DNA from: Brachyspira sp. SAP_772
GTDB taxonomy: Bacteria; Spirochaetota; Brachyspiria; Brachyspirales; Brachyspiraceae
DNA: 64,000 nt
Assembly (NCBI RefSeq): GCF_009755885.1
Contig: NZ_VYIX01000002.1
Location: forward strand, 289,957-353,956
Direction of reading: 5' to 3'
Shown: positions 14,526-40,182 of the stretch, one piece after another
Layout of the letters: every line of letters starts with the position of its first letter
Numbering within the stretch: the stretch's first letter is position 1
Notes under the pieces: model-generated
The model's input: only the letters and a program-made list of their open reading frames with translations
Told to the model about the DNA's origin: nothing
The model's database searches: none
Position numbers and translations under genes: made by a program

Positions 14526-14875
14526 GGGGATGCTCCGGCTTCGACTGCGATGGTTGAGTCATATTTTGCATAGCCGTGCTTGGTATATGCACGTAAATAT
14601 CATACTAAAAATATAAGTGCAGACGAATACGCACTTGCAGCTTAATTGAAGCTGTCACTGGTTTAGTGATTTGTCTATGGGTTGCTTTATCGGTGTCGAA
14701 ACACATAGAACTTGTATTGGGTGCCGTTTGAGCCTAATATTACGTATACTCAAACTAGCTTTATAGTTTTTCTGCTTGTCTTTTACCTGTAGAGTGAAAC
14801 TTCAAAGATAAGATATGCTATGTAGACGGATATGGGGCGCTTCGTAGGACGCGGGTTCGAGTCCCGCCATCTCCA
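14526..14875 (+). ncRNA. ssrA: tmRNA (ssrA), one-piece
   Basis: About 350 bases. The 5' end GGGGATG pairs with CATCTCC at the 3' end to form the acceptor stem, and GCGGGTTCGAGTCCCGC forms the T arm. The tag reading frame starts most likely at GCA 14619 after an ATAAGT context and encodes ADEYALAA, stop at 14643-14645. The tag ends in the expected ALAA degron but is short, at eight residues. CCA is partly encoded at most. tmRNA rescues stalled ribosomes together with SmpB, which is not in this window. Confidence 0.96.
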
Positions 14876-14895
14876 ATTCTTATAAAAAATTAACT

Positions 14896-28596: not shown

Positions 28597-29037
28597 ATGA
28601 AAGAAGAAGAGTTAAAGAAGCATATAGACATTATATATAACCATTGGTATGAAGCTAATAGGTTTTATCATATATGGGCAAAACAGTATGGCATAACAGA
28701 TTTAACTTTGTTTACATTAGGGCTAATTTATTATAGTAAAGAATGTCCGCAGAATATGGTTACAGAGAAATTGTGCATACCAAAGCAAACGTGTTGTTCT
28801 CTTCTTAATGGGCTTGAGAAAAAGGGATACATTACAAGAAAGGTTAATATTAAAGATAAAAGAAACAAAATTATTAGTCTCACTAAGAAGGGTATTAAGT
28901 TTGCTGAGCCTATATTAGAAAAACTTGAAAAGCTTGATACAGATATGCTTGCTTCTTTAAGAGATGAAGATATAGTAAAGTATACAGATTGTCTGAAAGA
29001 GCTAATTAAGTTTATGGAGAATTATTTTAAAGATTGA
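28597..29037 (+). CDS. MarR-family transcriptional regulator
   Basis: 146 residues with the MarR winged helix: TLFTLGLIYYSKECPQNMVTEKL, recognition-helix region CIPKQTCCSLLNGLEKKGYI, and wing TRKVNIKDKRNKIISLTKKG. N- and C-terminal helices form the dimer. MarR proteins are usually repressors released by a small ligand. It is 11 bases downstream of the NSS transporter and very likely in the same transcript. Three Cys near the recognition helix (CIPKQTCC) are a possible redox feature, but that is conjecture. Confidence 0.88.
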   Translation: MKEEELKKHIDIIYNHWYEANRFYHIWAKQYGITDLTLFTLGLIYYSKECPQNMVTEKLCIPKQTCCSLLNGLEKKGYITRKVNIKDKRNKIISLTKKGIKFAEPILEKLEKLDTDMLASLRDEDIVKYTDCLKELIKFMENYFKD

Positions 29038-30728: not shown

Positions 30729-30757
30729 TTGACAAAACCTAATCACTTTAGTATAAT
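30729..30757 (+). promoter_or_regulatory. Near-consensus promoter for the cysteine-cluster gene
   Basis: TTGACA at 30729-30734 and TATAAT at 30752-30757 with a 17-base spacer. Transcription should start near 30764, so the coding start must be the ATG at 30793. Confidence 0.82.
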
Positions 30758-30792: not shown

Positions 30793-31233
30793 ATGAAAGT
30801 AATACCTTCTGATAAAATTTTTAAAGATAGAAAAGAAAAAGTTACAGATAAATTATGTGCTGATTGTAATTCTCTATGCTGTCATGATTTGGTGATGGAA
30901 ATATCTAAACCTAAAAATGAAGAAGAATTAAAAACTTTGAAATGGTATCTTTATTTTAAGCATTCATTTATTTTTATATATCAGGATACTTGGTATCATA
31001 TGATAAGAAGTGAGTGCAGGTATTTAGATAAAAAAACTTATTTGTGCAAAAATTATGAGAACAGGCATGATATATGTACTAAGCACAGTCCGCCAAAATG
31101 TGAGAGATATGAAGAGTGGTATGATGTGATATTTGATGATCAGTATGAGTTAGAAAAATATGTTTATGAGAAAAAAATTATTAAAAAGAAATCTTCTAAA
31201 TCTCCAAAAAAAATAGCTAAAAAAGTAAAATAA
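30793..31233 (+). CDS. YkgJ-family cysteine-cluster protein
   Basis: 146 residues. Eight cysteines are arranged as LCADCNSLCC near the N-terminus, then ECRYLDKKTYLCKNYENR, ICTKH and KCERYEEW, which is the YkgJ-type pattern thought to bind zinc or an iron-sulphur cluster. Function is unknown. The C-terminus is a Lys/Ser-rich basic tail of about 20 residues. It opens a three-gene row with the radical-SAM-like and NUDIX genes (gaps of 29 and 18 bases). Confidence 0.78.
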   Translation: MKVIPSDKIFKDRKEKVTDKLCADCNSLCCHDLVMEISKPKNEEELKTLKWYLYFKHSFIFIYQDTWYHMIRSECRYLDKKTYLCKNYENRHDICTKHSPPKCERYEEWYDVIFDDQYELEKYVYEKKIIKKKSSKSPKKIAKKVK

Positions 31234-31262: not shown

Positions 31263-32723
31263 ATGAAAAAAGAAAAAATTGATAGAGTATGCATAACATA
31301 TCCGCCTTTTGAATATAATAAAGGTTTTCCATTAATGTCTTTGAATAGGCAATTTCAATGGGTAAAAAATTTTTCTGCTAATTATCCGATGTTATCTGCC
31401 TATGCTGCTACTTTGTTAAAGAATAATGGCTATGATGTTTTTTTTATAGACACTATTGCAAGAAAGATGGACATCATAGATTGGCTTATACAAATCGACA
31501 AAATAAATCCGCAATTAATTTTTTTTGAAGCTGCTACTGCTACCATAAATTATACTTGGGATACTATTGACGCTATTAAAGATAAATATAAAAATGCTTA
31601 TATAGTTTTAGCTGGGGACCATGTTACAGCATTGCCTGAAGAGAGTTTTGATAAGTCTGAAGTAGATTTTGTAATCACAGGCGGTGATTATGATGTGCTT
31701 CTTTTAAGTATTGTAAATTATATTAATAATGGTGAGAAATTAAAAGAAGGTATATATTATAGAACATCTCAAGGAAATATTAGAAATACTGGCAAATGTA
31801 AACTTGATTATCCTTTAGACCGCCTTCCATTTATAGATAGAAATCTAACTAATTGGAAATTATATTCCAAAGAAAATGAATACTATAAAAAAACTCCAGC
31901 TACGTTTATTATGTCTGGCAGAGGTTCTGTTTTTGGAAATCATAATTGTTCAACTTCTAATATATTATTTAATAATGTTAGGTTAAGAAACCCTATTAAT
32001 GTTGTTGATGAAATTGAATATTTATATAAAAGATATAATATAAAAGAGTTTGTTGATGTTACAGTGTCTTTTCCTATGGGTGAGTGGCTTTCATTATTTT
32101 GTCAAACTATGATAGAGAGAAAATTAAATAAAAAAGTTTATATTGATTGTCATATGTATTTTACTGATTTGGATTATCATTATTATAAGATGATGAAAAG
32201 AGCTGGGTTTAAAACATTAATTGTAACTTTTCCTTCTGCAAATACTAAAACATTAGAAAAACTTTCTCCTTCACATGTAAATATAGATTCTGTTATTAAT
32301 TCTATTAAGATGGCGAGAAAGGCAGGGCTTTTTATAGATATGATGGTTAAGATTGGATATCCTTGGGAGAGTGAAGAAGATATTATAGCTACTTTTGATA
32401 CAATAAAATATTTTATGACTAATGGTTACATTAATACAATGAATACTTCAATATTTGTTCCATATCCCGGCACTAATGTATTTAATTATTGTCAGGAGAA
32501 TAATTATATTAATACAGATAATTGGTTTGAATATGATATGCGCACTAGTGTGATGAAGTTAGAAGTTGATGATATTTTTAAGTATGTAGAATATTTTTAT
32601 AATTTATCTTTTAATCCTATGTATGTTTTCCATAAAATTTTAAGCATTAGAGATATATATGATATCAGGCATCATATAAACTCTTTTAGAAATATCATAT
32701 CATCGTACATCAATAGGGAGTAA
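31263..32723 (+). CDS. B12-binding/radical-SAM-like protein lacking the cluster cysteines
   Basis: 486 residues. Residues about 8-155 resemble the cobalamin-binding-like domain of B12-radical-SAM enzymes (YPMLSAYAATLLKNNGYDV, AGDHVTALPEES, VDFVITGGDYD). Residues about 212-430 follow the radical-SAM barrel (NVVDEIEYLYKRYNI, GFKTLIVTFPSANTKTLEKL, VKIGYPWESEEDI). The CxxxCxxC loop, expected after the GRG at 219-221, reads GRGSVFGNHNCSTSN: only one Cys (229) remains. It probably cannot hold the usual [4Fe-4S] cluster. It lies between a cysteine-cluster protein and a NUDIX enzyme. Confidence 0.78.
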   Translation: MKKEKIDRVCITYPPFEYNKGFPLMSLNRQFQWVKNFSANYPMLSAYAATLLKNNGYDVFFIDTIARKMDIIDWLIQIDKINPQLIFFEAATATINYTWDTIDAIKDKYKNAYIVLAGDHVTALPEESFDKSEVDFVITGGDYDVLLLSIVNYINNGEKLKEGIYYRTSQGNIRNTGKCKLDYPLDRLPFIDRNLTNWKLYSKENEYYKKTPATFIMSGRGSVFGNHNCSTSNILFNNVRLRNPINVVDEIEYLYKRYNIKEFVDVTVSFPMGEWLSLFCQTMIERKLNKKVYIDCHMYFTDLDYHYYKMMKRAGFKTLIVTFPSANTKTLEKLSPSHVNIDSVINSIKMARKAGLFIDMMVKIGYPWESEEDIIATFDTIKYFMTNGYINTMNTSIFVPYPGTNVFNYCQENNYINTDNWFEYDMRTSVMKLEVDDIFKYVEYFYNLSFNPMYVFHKILSIRDIYDIRHHINSFRNIISSYINRE

Positions 32724-36417: not shown

Positions 36418-36546
36418 TGAATTATTGTATTTAAAATTTTGGTTATAACATAAAAATATTAAAAAATACGAACTCATTATAAAAGCTATAACAATTTTTG
36501 TATACTTGACAATAAAAAAAATTTGTGTATACTAACTAATATATAA

Positions 36547-36677
36547 ATCTTCGGGGCTAGGTGAAATTCCATACCGGCGGTAAAGTCCGCGAGCCTTTTT
36601 GATGTTTCCTGCATTCAAAAATAGCAGATTTGGTGCAATTCCAAAACCGACAGTTAAAGTCTGGATGGTAGAAGATG
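36547..36677 (+). promoter_or_regulatory. FMN riboswitch (RFN element)
   Basis: Conserved blocks in order: TCTTCGGGGCTAGGTG, AATTCCATACCGGCGGT, AAAGTCCGCGAGCC, then GCAGATTTGGTGCAATTCC, AAAACCGACAGTTAAAGTC and TGGATGGTAGAAGAT, with TCTTC and GAAGA closing the P1 stem. It binds FMN and controls the riboflavin genes downstream. A variable arm at about 36600-36625 is short. Confidence 0.95.
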
Positions 36678-36711
36678 TTTTTTAATGTAAACTACATATC
36701 AAAAAATTATG

Positions 36712-36815: not shown

Positions 36816-37913
36816 ATGCATGAAAAATATATGAGAATGGCTATAGAAGAGGCTAAAAAAGGAGAGGGTTTTACTAGTCCTAATCCTTTAGTTGGTGCTG
36901 TTATAGTGAAAGAGAATAAAGTTATAGGCATTGGATATCATAAAAAATATGGTGAGAATCATGCTGAGATTAATGCTTTTTTGGATGCAAAGGAAAGAGG
37001 TGAAGATGTTGAGGGAGCTTCAATATATGTAACCTTAGAGCCTTGTTCTCATTATGGAAAAACTCCTCCTTGTGCTGATGCTATTATAAAAAACAAATTA
37101 AAAAAAGTTATTATAGGCTGTGTGGATTCCAATCCTAAAGTGGCAGGTGGCGGCATAAAAAAATTACAAGATGCTGGAATTGAGGTTGTAGTAAATGTGC
37201 TTGAAGAAGAGTGCAGAAAATTAAATGAAGTTTTTTTCTACTATATAACTAATAAAAGACCTTTTGTTGTAATGAAATATGCTATGACTATGGACGGTAA
37301 AATTGCTACAGTGAGCGGTAAATCAAAGTGGATAACTAGCGAAAAAACAAGAGAGCATTCTCATAGGTTTAGGAATAAATATTCTGCTATAATGGTTGGA
37401 ATAAACACTGTAATAGAAGATAACCCTATGCTTAATTGTAGGCTTCCAAACACTAGAAACCCTATAAGAATAATTTTGGATAGTTCATTAAAAATAAGTT
37501 TAGAGTCTAATATTTGTAAAACAGCAAAAGATATAAAAACTTTTATAGCTACTGTGAGTGATGATTATAAAAAAATAAAAGAGCTTGAAGGGTTAGGTGT
37601 AGAGATAATAAAAACAGAAAGTGATGGTGGAAGAGTAAGTTTAAAAGATTTGATGAAAATACTCGGAGAAGAAAAAGACATTGACAGTGTGTATGTTGAG
37701 GGTGGGGCAAGTTTACATGCTAGTTTATTAAAAGAAAAGTTAGTAAATAAAGCTTTAGTTTATATAGCACCAAAAATATTTGGCGGTTTTGAGGCAAAAA
37801 GCCCTATAGGAGGCGAAGGAATAGAAGAGCCTGATGATGCTATTAGGCTTATTGGAAGTAGTATAACAAAGATAGAAGATGATTTATTTTTGGAGTATTA
37901 TTTAAAGTATTAA
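36816..37913 (+). CDS. ribD: Riboflavin biosynthesis deaminase/reductase RibD
   Basis: 365 residues. Deaminase half (about 1-145): HAEINAFLDA and PCSHYGKTPPCADAI give the zinc His and Cys pair. Reductase half (about 150-365): RPFVVMKYAMTMDGKIAT and VYVEGGASLHASLL. RibD carries out the second and third steps from GTP to riboflavin. It is the first gene after the FMN riboswitch. The Shine-Dalgarno site is weak (AAGAG). A repeat module follows directly after its stop. Confidence 0.95.
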   Translation: MHEKYMRMAIEEAKKGEGFTSPNPLVGAVIVKENKVIGIGYHKKYGENHAEINAFLDAKERGEDVEGASIYVTLEPCSHYGKTPPCADAIIKNKLKKVIIGCVDSNPKVAGGGIKKLQDAGIEVVVNVLEEECRKLNEVFFYYITNKRPFVVMKYAMTMDGKIATVSGKSKWITSEKTREHSHRFRNKYSAIMVGINTVIEDNPMLNCRLPNTRNPIRIILDSSLKISLESNICKTAKDIKTFIATVSDDYKKIKELEGLGVEIIKTESDGGRVSLKDLMKILGEEKDIDSVYVEGGASLHASLLKEKLVNKALVYIAPKIFGGFEAKSPIGGEGIEEPDDAIRLIGSSITKIEDDLFLEYYLKY

Positions 37914-37924
37914 TTTATATAATA

Positions 37925-38000
37925 CTTGATTACTGGGGACTAGTCCCCAGACCCCTACTTCTTTTGGTGACCCAAAGAAGCAAAAGGACTGCATTTGTAT
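37925..38000. repeat. Repeat module between ribD and ribE
   Basis: Reverse copy: GGGGACTAGTCCCC palindrome at 37937-37950, then CCCCTACTTCTTTTGG, GACCCAAAGAAGCAAAAGG and ACTGCAT. It matches the module at 40398-40468 in the other orientation and lacks the GC-rich cassettes. Confidence 0.85.
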
Positions 38001-38063
38001 TATTTTGCATTCAATGTCATCAAAGAAATTATAATTTATAAATTTTTATAGGATTACTTAATA

Positions 38064-38702
38064 ATGTTTACTGGTATAGTTGAAGAAATAGGAACTGTTA
38101 AATCGGTACAAAGCAAAGTTATTACAATAGAAGCAAGTAAAATATTTGATGATTTGCATTTGGGTGATAGCGTTGCTGTTAATGGTACTTGTTTAACTGT
38201 ATCTAGTTTTGATAATAAAATATTTAATGCTGATGTTACTCAAGAAACTTTGAATCGTACTAATTTGGGAAGTTTAAAAAATGGAAGTAAAGTTAATCTT
38301 GAGAGGGCTATGACTTTAAGAGGAAGATTTGGAGGTCATATAGTAAGCGGACATATTGACGGAGTGGGAAGCATTAAGTCTATGAAGAAAGATGATAATG
38401 CTATTATACTTACTATTGAAGTGCCTAAACATTTAATGAAGTATATTGTAGAAAAAGGTTCGGTTGCTGTTGACGGTATAAGTTTAACGGTGGCTAGTTT
38501 AACTGATAATACTTTTTCTATAGCCGTTATTCCGCATACATTAAAAGAGACTGTGTTATATTATAAAAAAGAAGGGGACAAGGTTAATATTGAAAATGAT
38601 GTTATAGGCAAATATGTTGAAAGGCTTTTAACATTTAAAGAAGATAATGACAGTAAAAAATCTAACATTACAATGGAGTTCTTATTTAAGAATGGGTTTT
38701 AA
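38064..38702 (+). CDS. ribE: Riboflavin synthase alpha chain
   Basis: 212 residues with two homologous lumazine-binding domains: MFTGIVEEIGTV with NGTCLTV, and GHIVSGHIDGVG with DGISLTVASL. It dismutates two lumazine molecules to riboflavin and an amino-pyrimidine. AGGA lies about 10 bases before the start. It is 150 bases after ribD, the gap holding a repeat. Confidence 0.95.
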   Translation: MFTGIVEEIGTVKSVQSKVITIEASKIFDDLHLGDSVAVNGTCLTVSSFDNKIFNADVTQETLNRTNLGSLKNGSKVNLERAMTLRGRFGGHIVSGHIDGVGSIKSMKKDDNAIILTIEVPKHLMKYIVEKGSVAVDGISLTVASLTDNTFSIAVIPHTLKETVLYYKKEGDKVNIENDVIGKYVERLLTFKEDNDSKKSNITMEFLFKNGF

Positions 38703-38814
38703 AATATTGTTTTTTGAGATTTATACTGGAATGTCTGCGTTTTTCAAAAGGCATAATTATAGTAGTTTGTATAAGTATAATATGTATTAAATATAGAATA
38801 CTATAGAATTGTAT

Positions 38815-38935
38815 TGAAAATGCAGTTCTTTTGCTTCTTTTATACCAATACCGAGTAGGTGCCTATCGGCAAAAGAAGTGGGGTGCTACCCTACGGGCAC
38901 GCTTCGCAGGGGGCAAAGCCCTGCAAATATTAAAA
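38815..38935. repeat. Repeat module between ribE and ribBA, with two cassettes
   Basis: TGCAGTTCTTTTGCTTC module from 38820, with cassette GTAGGTGCCTATCGGC (unit 38850-38870) and cassette CTACGGGCACGCTTCGC (within about 38887-38909), ending GGGGGCAAAGCCCTGC. It fills the middle of the 280-base gap. Confidence 0.87.
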
Positions 38936-38982
38936 TTAAAAATTTTTACTATATGATAAAAAAATAAAAGGAGAGTTAAAAA

Positions 38983-40182
38983 ATGGAAAATGTTTACAGC
39001 ACTATTGATGAGGCTTTAGAAGATTTAAGAAACGGAAAAATAATCGTTGTTTCTGATGATGAAGATAGAGAAAATGAGGGCGATTTAATCTGTGCGGCAG
39101 AGTTTGCTACTACAGAAAATATTAACTTTATGGCTACTTATGCTAAAGGCTTAATATGCATGCCTATGAGCAGAGAGATTACAAACAAATTAAACTTAAA
39201 TCAAATGGTTACAAAAAATACTGATAATCATGAAACAGCTTTCACAGTATCTATTGACCATGTTGACACTACTACAGGAATATCTGCAGTTGAGAGGTCT
39301 ATCACTGCTTTAAAAGTGGTTGATGAAAATGCTAAAGCAGAAGATTTTAGACGTCCCGGTCATATGTTTCCATTACTTGCAAAAGAGGGCGGAGTGTTAG
39401 TGAGAATGGGGCATACTGAAGCTACTGTTGATTTAATGAGATTAGCAGGCTTAAAAGAATGCGGTTTATGCTGCGAGATTATGAAAGATAATGGCGATAT
39501 GATGAGAAGAGATGATTTAATTGAGTTTTCTAAAAAACATAATCTTAAAATGATAACAGTATCTGCTTTAATAGACTATAGAAAGAAAAATGAAGATTTG
39601 ATGGAGCTTTATGCCAAGGCTAAAATGCCAACAAAATACGGCGAGTTTGAAATATTAACATTCGTAAACAAAATAACAAAACAGCATCATGTTGTGCTTA
39701 CTATGGGAGATATTAGCGACGGTGAAGATGTTTTATGCAGGGTGCATTCAGAATGTTTAACAGGCGATGCATTAGGCTCTAGAAGATGTGATTGCGGAGA
39801 GCAGTATAATTATGCTATGCGTGCTATTGCTGAAGAAGGCAGGGGCATAATGGTTTATATGCGTCAAGAGGGCAGAGGAATAGGACTTGTTAATAAACTA
39901 AAGGCTTATGAACTTCAAGATAGAGGTCTTGATACAGTTGATGCTAATAGGGCTTTGGGTTTTAGAGATGATATGCGTGAATATTATGAGGCTTATCAGA
40001 TGTTAAAAAAATTGGGCATTAAAAGCGTAAGGATAATGACTAATAACCCAGAGAAAATAAAACATTTAGAGAATTATGGACTTGAAATAGAAGAGAGGAT
40101 ACCTATACAGATAGAAGCAACAGAGTACGATTTATTTTATCTTCAAACAAAAAAGGAGCGTATGGGGCACATTCTTGATTAA
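38983..40182 (+). CDS. ribBA: Bifunctional DHBP synthase / GTP cyclohydrolase II
   Basis: 399 residues. RibB half (about 1-200): [11 protein letters not shown], the metal-binding acidic loop, and [15 protein letters not shown]. RibA half (about 205-399): [20 protein letters not shown] with the three zinc cysteines and [11 protein letters not shown]. It makes both precursors of riboflavin. AGGAGAG lies 7 bases before the start, the strongest site in the rib set. A terminator hairpin follows its stop. Confidence 0.96.

Follow-up and report, generated by a model that had tools for sequence, protein, structure and literature searches.

A radical SAM pseudoenzyme candidate conserved across Brachyspira beside a gene for an eight-cysteine protein

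Within a window of 64,000 nucleotides from Brachyspira sp. SAP_772 (the whole stretch of DNA analyzed), a gene encodes a protein built like a B12-dependent radical SAM enzyme in which the cluster cysteines have been replaced. The motif is lost in every copy found in the genus, the gene is kept by purifying selection, its pairing with a gene for an eight-cysteine protein is retained, the loss has fallen unevenly on its domains, and an intact paralogue is encoded elsewhere in the genomes. This suggests an enzyme that has turned into a partner or carrier protein. The reading that we favor, and consider reasonably probable, is that of a pseudoenzyme derived from a B12-dependent radical SAM enzyme, now possibly serving as a corrinoid-binding, non-radical partner of the eight-cysteine protein.

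Results

Domain layout and predicted fold

The features of the gene and its neighborhood are collected in Table 1. The domain order corresponds to the layout of B12 radical SAM enzymes given in a review (PMC13331322), and the N-terminal Rossmann domain is recognized as B12-binding above the Pfam cut-off. The Radical_SAM match, just under its cut-off in the window copy, starts at the last ligand position of the loop; unlike the window copy, two other genus copies pass this cut-off (L005, 35.3 bits; L024, 37.0 bits). The protein also resembles the HpnJ and BchE profiles, but with scores of 101.7 and 91.2 bits, which are far under the NCBIfam cut-offs of 577.6 and 481.35, so that it is an equivalog of neither. 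As a warning, domain-based annotation would label this protein a radical SAM enzyme.

Table 1. Features of the window that bear on the pseudo-radical-SAM gene
Feature	Position	Strand	Details
Pseudo-radical-SAM gene	31263..32723	+	486 aa ORF
Protein parts, N- to C-terminal			B12-binding-type Rossmann domain, linker, radical-SAM-fold barrel without cluster cysteines, C-terminal helices
PF02310 B12-binding match	31398..31682	+	Residues 46-140; 38.2 bits, above the Pfam cut-off of 32.1
PF04055 Radical_SAM match	31950..32393	+	Residues 230-377; 27.5 bits, below the Pfam cut-off of 29.5
Dismantled cluster loop	31926..31961	+	S222-N233 (SVFGNHNCSTSN); CX4CX2C at the same place in intact relatives
Eight-cysteine protein gene	30793..31233	+	146 aa with this ATG as start; mechanical ORF begins at 30757; PF03692 "CxxCxxCC" family
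MarR-like regulator gene (presumed from its sequence)	28597..29037	+	Parted from the eight-cysteine gene here by an opposite-strand gene

An AlphaFold2 model of the window protein (pLDDT 87.2, pTM 0.89, with the loop block at 68) has the partial TIM-barrel fold of radical SAM enzymes, although the model may lean to the parent fold because intact relatives were in its alignment. Its Z scores against B12 radical SAM structures range from 19 to 31.5. The best solved matches are AprD4 (Z 31.5), MgmA (26.5), OxsB (26.4), and TsrM (26.2); MgmA, TsrM, and OxsB, together with CysS and TokK, span Z 19 to 26. The match to AprD4, a radical SAM diol dehydratase (6fd2), extends over 418 residues. Unlike the window protein, AprD4 is an active radical SAM enzyme, and to our knowledge its B12-like domain holds no corrinoid. 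Profile matches and predicted fold agree with the combination of B12-binding and radical SAM parts that an earlier note on this DNA had read from the letters.

Loss of the cluster motif

The textbook radical SAM motif is CX3CX2C, and the earlier note had taken this spacing as the expected one. This was slightly off, as the intact members of the family themselves (L031-L054, L096, L026-L029) use CX4CX2C. The latter spacing is found in all 24 paralogues, in all 4 outgroup rows, and in 29 of the 34 intact loops from the genome-contig search; GRDCWHHRCTFCSW is an example of an intact loop at this place.

In the window protein, the loop SVFGNHNCSTSN sits after GRG, codons 217-232 of the gene corresponding to positions 31911-31958. 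When 24 genus copies are aligned with 24 intact paralogues and 4 outgroup relatives, S222, H227, and S230 fall at the three ligand-cysteine positions, in line with the earlier observation of a Ser in place of the first Cys and a single Cys in the loop. That lone residue, Cys229, aligns with the F of C-T-F-C, where no ligand sits, and 20 of the 24 genus copies have Ser there; it can thus be discarded as a leftover ligand. The three-cysteine [4Fe-4S] motif is absent from all 25 genus copies, and the protein is accordingly predicted, as had been proposed, to be unable to bind a cluster with SAM in the manner usual for these enzymes.

The alignment of genus copies with intact relatives contains no new conserved cysteine set that could replace the lost ligands, and thus no sign in the sequence of a cluster bound elsewhere in the protein. 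C280, C296, and C410 are common to the intact relatives, which leaves a replacement cluster made from other cysteines unsupported, and C10 is the sole conserved cysteine particular to the pseudo-radical-SAM lineage.

A sister group of this family in other spirochaetes and bacteria (L071-L074, L099, L154, L155) has extra residues between its first two cluster cysteines, with spacings of about CX9 to CX30 followed by CX2C, and two Microgenomates-type records (L146, L147) have CX7CX2C; for a radical SAM motif, this is an unusual spread. The first-to-second spacing is 10 in L154 and 4 in the sister-family genome G042.

Occurrence in the genus and selection

The gene is present in 25 of 26 Brachyspira genomes, G006 being the sole genome in which it was not found, and all 25 reading frames are intact. 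The motif was missing in all 24 copies examined first and is also missing in the 25th (G041, contig C63, loci L093/L100; same contig as L109). The genome-contig search returned 51 loci, of which 16 lack the motif (15 from Brachyspira, and L153 from the sister-family genome G043), 34 carry it with one spacing or another, and 1 is truncated ahead of the loop. L156, which has no loop, was counted as neither in the motif tally, and L148, which has an in-frame stop, was excluded from alignment A3. The motif-complete paralogue is represented by 24 complete copies and one further copy in G041 (L131). Both genes occur in 25 of the 26 genus genomes, where the G014 paralogue is cut by the contig end before the loop.

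Selection was assessed with our own Nei-Gojobori script, excluding pairs outside dS 0.05-1; values at dS near 0.8 are rough. The median dN/dS was 0.162 for the pseudo-radical-SAM gene (231 pairs) and 0.047 for the intact paralogue (225 pairs). The window copy compared with four near relatives gave 0.108-0.125, which is in the same range as nearby genes (ribD, 0.087-0.129 in 2 pairs; Nudix, 0.116-0.154 in 4 pairs). A pseudogene would show a broken frame or a dN/dS near 1; here, 25 frames are intact and dN/dS lies at 0.108-0.162. The gene is therefore kept by purifying selection, but it evolves faster than the paralogue, with a mean identity within the genus of 0.77 versus 0.94. The comparison of homologues that the earlier note had called for thus places the cysteine loss in the whole genus, and this, with the intact frames and dN/dS values, rules out a single decayed allele.

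Uneven loss in the barrel and the B12 domain

In 28 intact relatives (24 paralogues and 4 outgroup sequences), 128 residues are invariant, and 19 of these have disappeared from at least 22 of the 24 genus copies. The lost residues are found in the barrel (15), the C-terminal part (2), the linker (1), and the B12 domain (1). With 15 lost and 42 kept in the barrel versus 1 lost and 46 kept in the B12 domain, the difference is significant (Fisher p 0.0006). Besides the three cysteines, the losses include D221, W232, and G268. D221, the D of GRDC, and G268, the G of DDTG, are gone in 24 of 24 genus copies, and in the three genus rows that were looked at, neither the GLES nor the NMR stretch seen in intact relatives remains. 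The D of GRDC, the G of DDTG, and the E of GLES presumably contact SAM, as we assume from what is known of the superfamily, and none of these SAM-side residues was retained where compared. In these losses, and in that of the cluster cysteines, the window protein is unlike B12-dependent radical SAM enzymes.

Relaxation is strongest in the barrel, where the median dN/dS is 0.024 for the paralogue versus 0.151 for the pseudo-radical-SAM gene; the corresponding values for the B12 domain are 0.067 and 0.170. The window copy differs at 9 of the 47 B12-domain residues that are invariant in relatives, and cofactor binding by this domain is therefore not assured. The G043 copy shows a similar loss, with 21 of 57 barrel residues and 12 of 47 B12-domain residues changed. 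However, drift alone is no proof of lost chemistry, because the homologue in the sister-family genome G044, which is paired and cysteine-complete, has also drifted widely (12 residues in the barrel and 17 in the B12 domain).

The eight-cysteine partner gene

The earlier note had pointed to a small neighboring protein with eight cysteines. These residues (C22, C25, C29, C30, C75, C85, C95, and C103) are present, and all are invariant in 17 aligned relatives; the protein matches PF03692 with 30.8 bits against a cut-off of 23 and has the cysteine pattern of that family. Its constraint is very strong, with dN/dS of 0-0.023 against four relatives. In all 25 genus loci, the gene immediately precedes the pseudo-radical-SAM gene and is read in the same direction, with gaps of 3-29 bp (29 bp in the window), while the other neighbors are reshuffled: the MarR-like gene adjoins the eight-cysteine gene on its upstream side in 18 of 24 loci, and the downstream Nudix and ScpB genes are kept in only 4 of 24. 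As for the intact paralogue, no neighbor is kept across the genus, nor does it have any neighborhood in common with the pseudo-radical-SAM gene. A mirror comparison of gene and partner distances gave a partial r of 0.92 over 23 genomes, which is not proof of partnership because linked genes share their history.

Among 296 genomes sampled from the phylum, only 27 carry close relatives of the partner (>200 bits), and all 27 belong to the family lineage of Brachyspira; 28 further genomes have only distant relatives. Four loci with distant PF03692 genes were looked at (L194-L196, from 3 of these 28 genomes, and L165, another PF03692 gene in the genome that the window comes from), and none was paired with a radical SAM gene of this family. 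The fold model of the partner is weak (pLDDT 62.8), with no solved-structure match at E 0.001 or better and none by profile. A search for cobalamin riboswitches near the genes in 6 sources yielded none at gathering score.

G006 lacks both the partner and the pseudo-radical-SAM gene, whereas the paralogue persists. Its contig matching the downstream flank of G021 runs past the place of the gene's 3' end into an unrelated gene. This favors a genuine absence, although the assembly consists of 990 contigs and is 88% complete. At the place of the missing gene (L159, contig C86, 4480-4893) lies the end of another gene with GFGGGMGIGITCGIITG, a stretch that we take to resemble C_GCAxxG_C_C redox proteins.

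Sister-family genomes and the history of the pair

Cysteine-complete homologues stand beside the same partner gene in G042 (GRDCWHHKCTFCSW; gap of 4 bp) and in G044 (SRGCFHNKCTFCRSS; overlap of 20 bp). The pairing is therefore older than the cluster loss. G043, which belongs to the same genus as G042 and has the same flanking genes, lacks the motif; the partner was not detected in this genome, where the contig ends 238 bp upstream of the gene, and the paralogue was not found. Either the pairing is not needed everywhere or the G043 copy is decaying. In G042 (L096, 8694-11479), the eight-cysteine gene is immediately preceded by two same-strand genes that we take to be TldE and TldD.

A first tree placed the gene as sister to the intact paralogue (97/94). 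In a second tree, which included three sister-family rows and used 10 of the 24 copies of each paralogue, the sister-family rows grouped with the Brachyspira copies (98/96) and not with the paralogue; a constraint that kept gene and paralogue together lowered lnL by 25.4 (p-AU 0.030). We follow the second tree because synteny supports it. The stem branch of the gene measures 1.06 in the first tree, versus 0.24 for the paralogue, and 0.54 in the second, and long branches remain a risk to the placement. Holding the G043 loss together with the Brachyspira loss gave a p-AU of 0.498, so that the tree does not separate one loss from two; the locus common to G043 and G042 favors a probably separate loss in G043. 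We read this history as a duplication before the radiation of the family, pairing of one copy with the eight-cysteine gene, and then cluster loss in Brachyspira and, probably independently, in G043.

Discussion

Under the favored explanation, the cluster ligands and part of the SAM site would have disappeared, on the Brachyspira stem, from the copy paired with the PF03692 gene, which would nonetheless have retained its fold, its B12-type domain, and its pairing. The protein may bind the eight-cysteine protein in a physical complex, serving as scaffold or carrier, and probably also binds a corrinoid or the former substrate. Such a division of work would leave any metal chemistry to the eight-cysteine protein and any true radical chemistry to the separate intact paralogue. 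Weighing against this explanation are the cluster-less G043 copy with no detectable partner, the failure to find a cobalamin riboswitch near the genes in the 6 sources, and the changed B12-domain residues of the window copy. It is also conceivable, if improbable, that the barrel gave up cluster and SAM while the B12 domain stayed, with the eight-cysteine protein delivering electrons or methyl groups in a two-component corrinoid/iron-sulfur system. If so, two lineages of a single spirochaete family would have abandoned radical SAM chemistry.

Pseudoenzymes have been well studied in other superfamilies. Full-text searches of open-licence literature brought up no description of a whole-genus radical SAM pseudoenzyme, which is weak evidence of absence. 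Dph1-Dph2, whose fold is unrelated to that of the window protein, is a non-canonical radical SAM system. According to PMC11048331, it consists of two unequal subunits without CX3CX2C, both of which, unlike the window protein, keep Fe-S clusters. We regard it as the nearest known case of unequal subunits. The eight-cysteine partner belongs to the family of FliB and other PF03692 proteins. According to PMC8598068, the CX4CX3CC motif of FliB, likened by its authors to PF03692, binds a [4Fe-4S] cluster that is needed for SAM-dependent methyl transfer, and FliB acts, as described there, without a radical-SAM-fold partner, unlike the putative pair here.

The use of such a cluster by FliB bears on a further idea, namely that the eight-cysteine protein docks on the barrel with its own [4Fe-4S] cluster, giving a split enzyme for corrinoid, SAM, or redox chemistry. 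The invariant cysteines, the very strong constraint on the partner, and the strict pairing in the genus would all fit a cluster provided in trans. Supply of the lost cluster by the partner is possible, but we regard the split enzyme as unlikely: the SAM-side residues were lost along with the cysteines, the cluster-less G043 has no detectable partner, and the pairing predates the loss, so that the partner did not originate as a substitute for the cluster. Of the role that the earlier note had suggested for the neighbor, that of a genomic partner therefore stands, whereas the idea that it exists to compensate for the missing cluster finds no support in these genomes. A quite unlikely role is that of a regulatory or stabilizing subunit of the intact paralogue. 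Dph1-Dph2 offers a precedent for uneven heterodimers, and the two genes co-occur in nearly the whole genus, but G006 keeps the paralogue without the pseudo-radical-SAM gene, G043 has the reverse, the two genes do not share a neighborhood, and they are not closest relatives once the sister genera are added.

The long stem branch, the faster evolution relative to the paralogue, and the second cluster loss in G043 are what one would expect of a gene that is losing its function and slowly eroding. Against such decay stand the intact frames, a dN/dS well below 1 and like that of ordinary neighbors, and the conserved spacing to the partner gene, and we hold it to be very unlikely. Even less credence is due to the idea that the old pocket has gained a new ligand or cluster site, which would make the protein a different type of enzyme. 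The replacement loop is conserved among the 20 copies that do not belong to the window's clade, where a 15-residue segment ranks at the 79th percentile of the protein and the consensus, NNYNSNSSN, is N/S-rich; once all 24 copies are taken, the same segment falls to the 35th percentile, and the cysteines described above offer no new conserved ligands. What a radical SAM fold can do without its cluster is directly testable, because intact, cluster-less, and unpaired forms coexist (in G042, Brachyspira, and G043, respectively).

Other features of the window

The window also contains an FMN riboswitch at 36543-36680, upstream of genes at 36816-40182 that we take to be riboflavin genes, and a tmRNA at 14526-14878.
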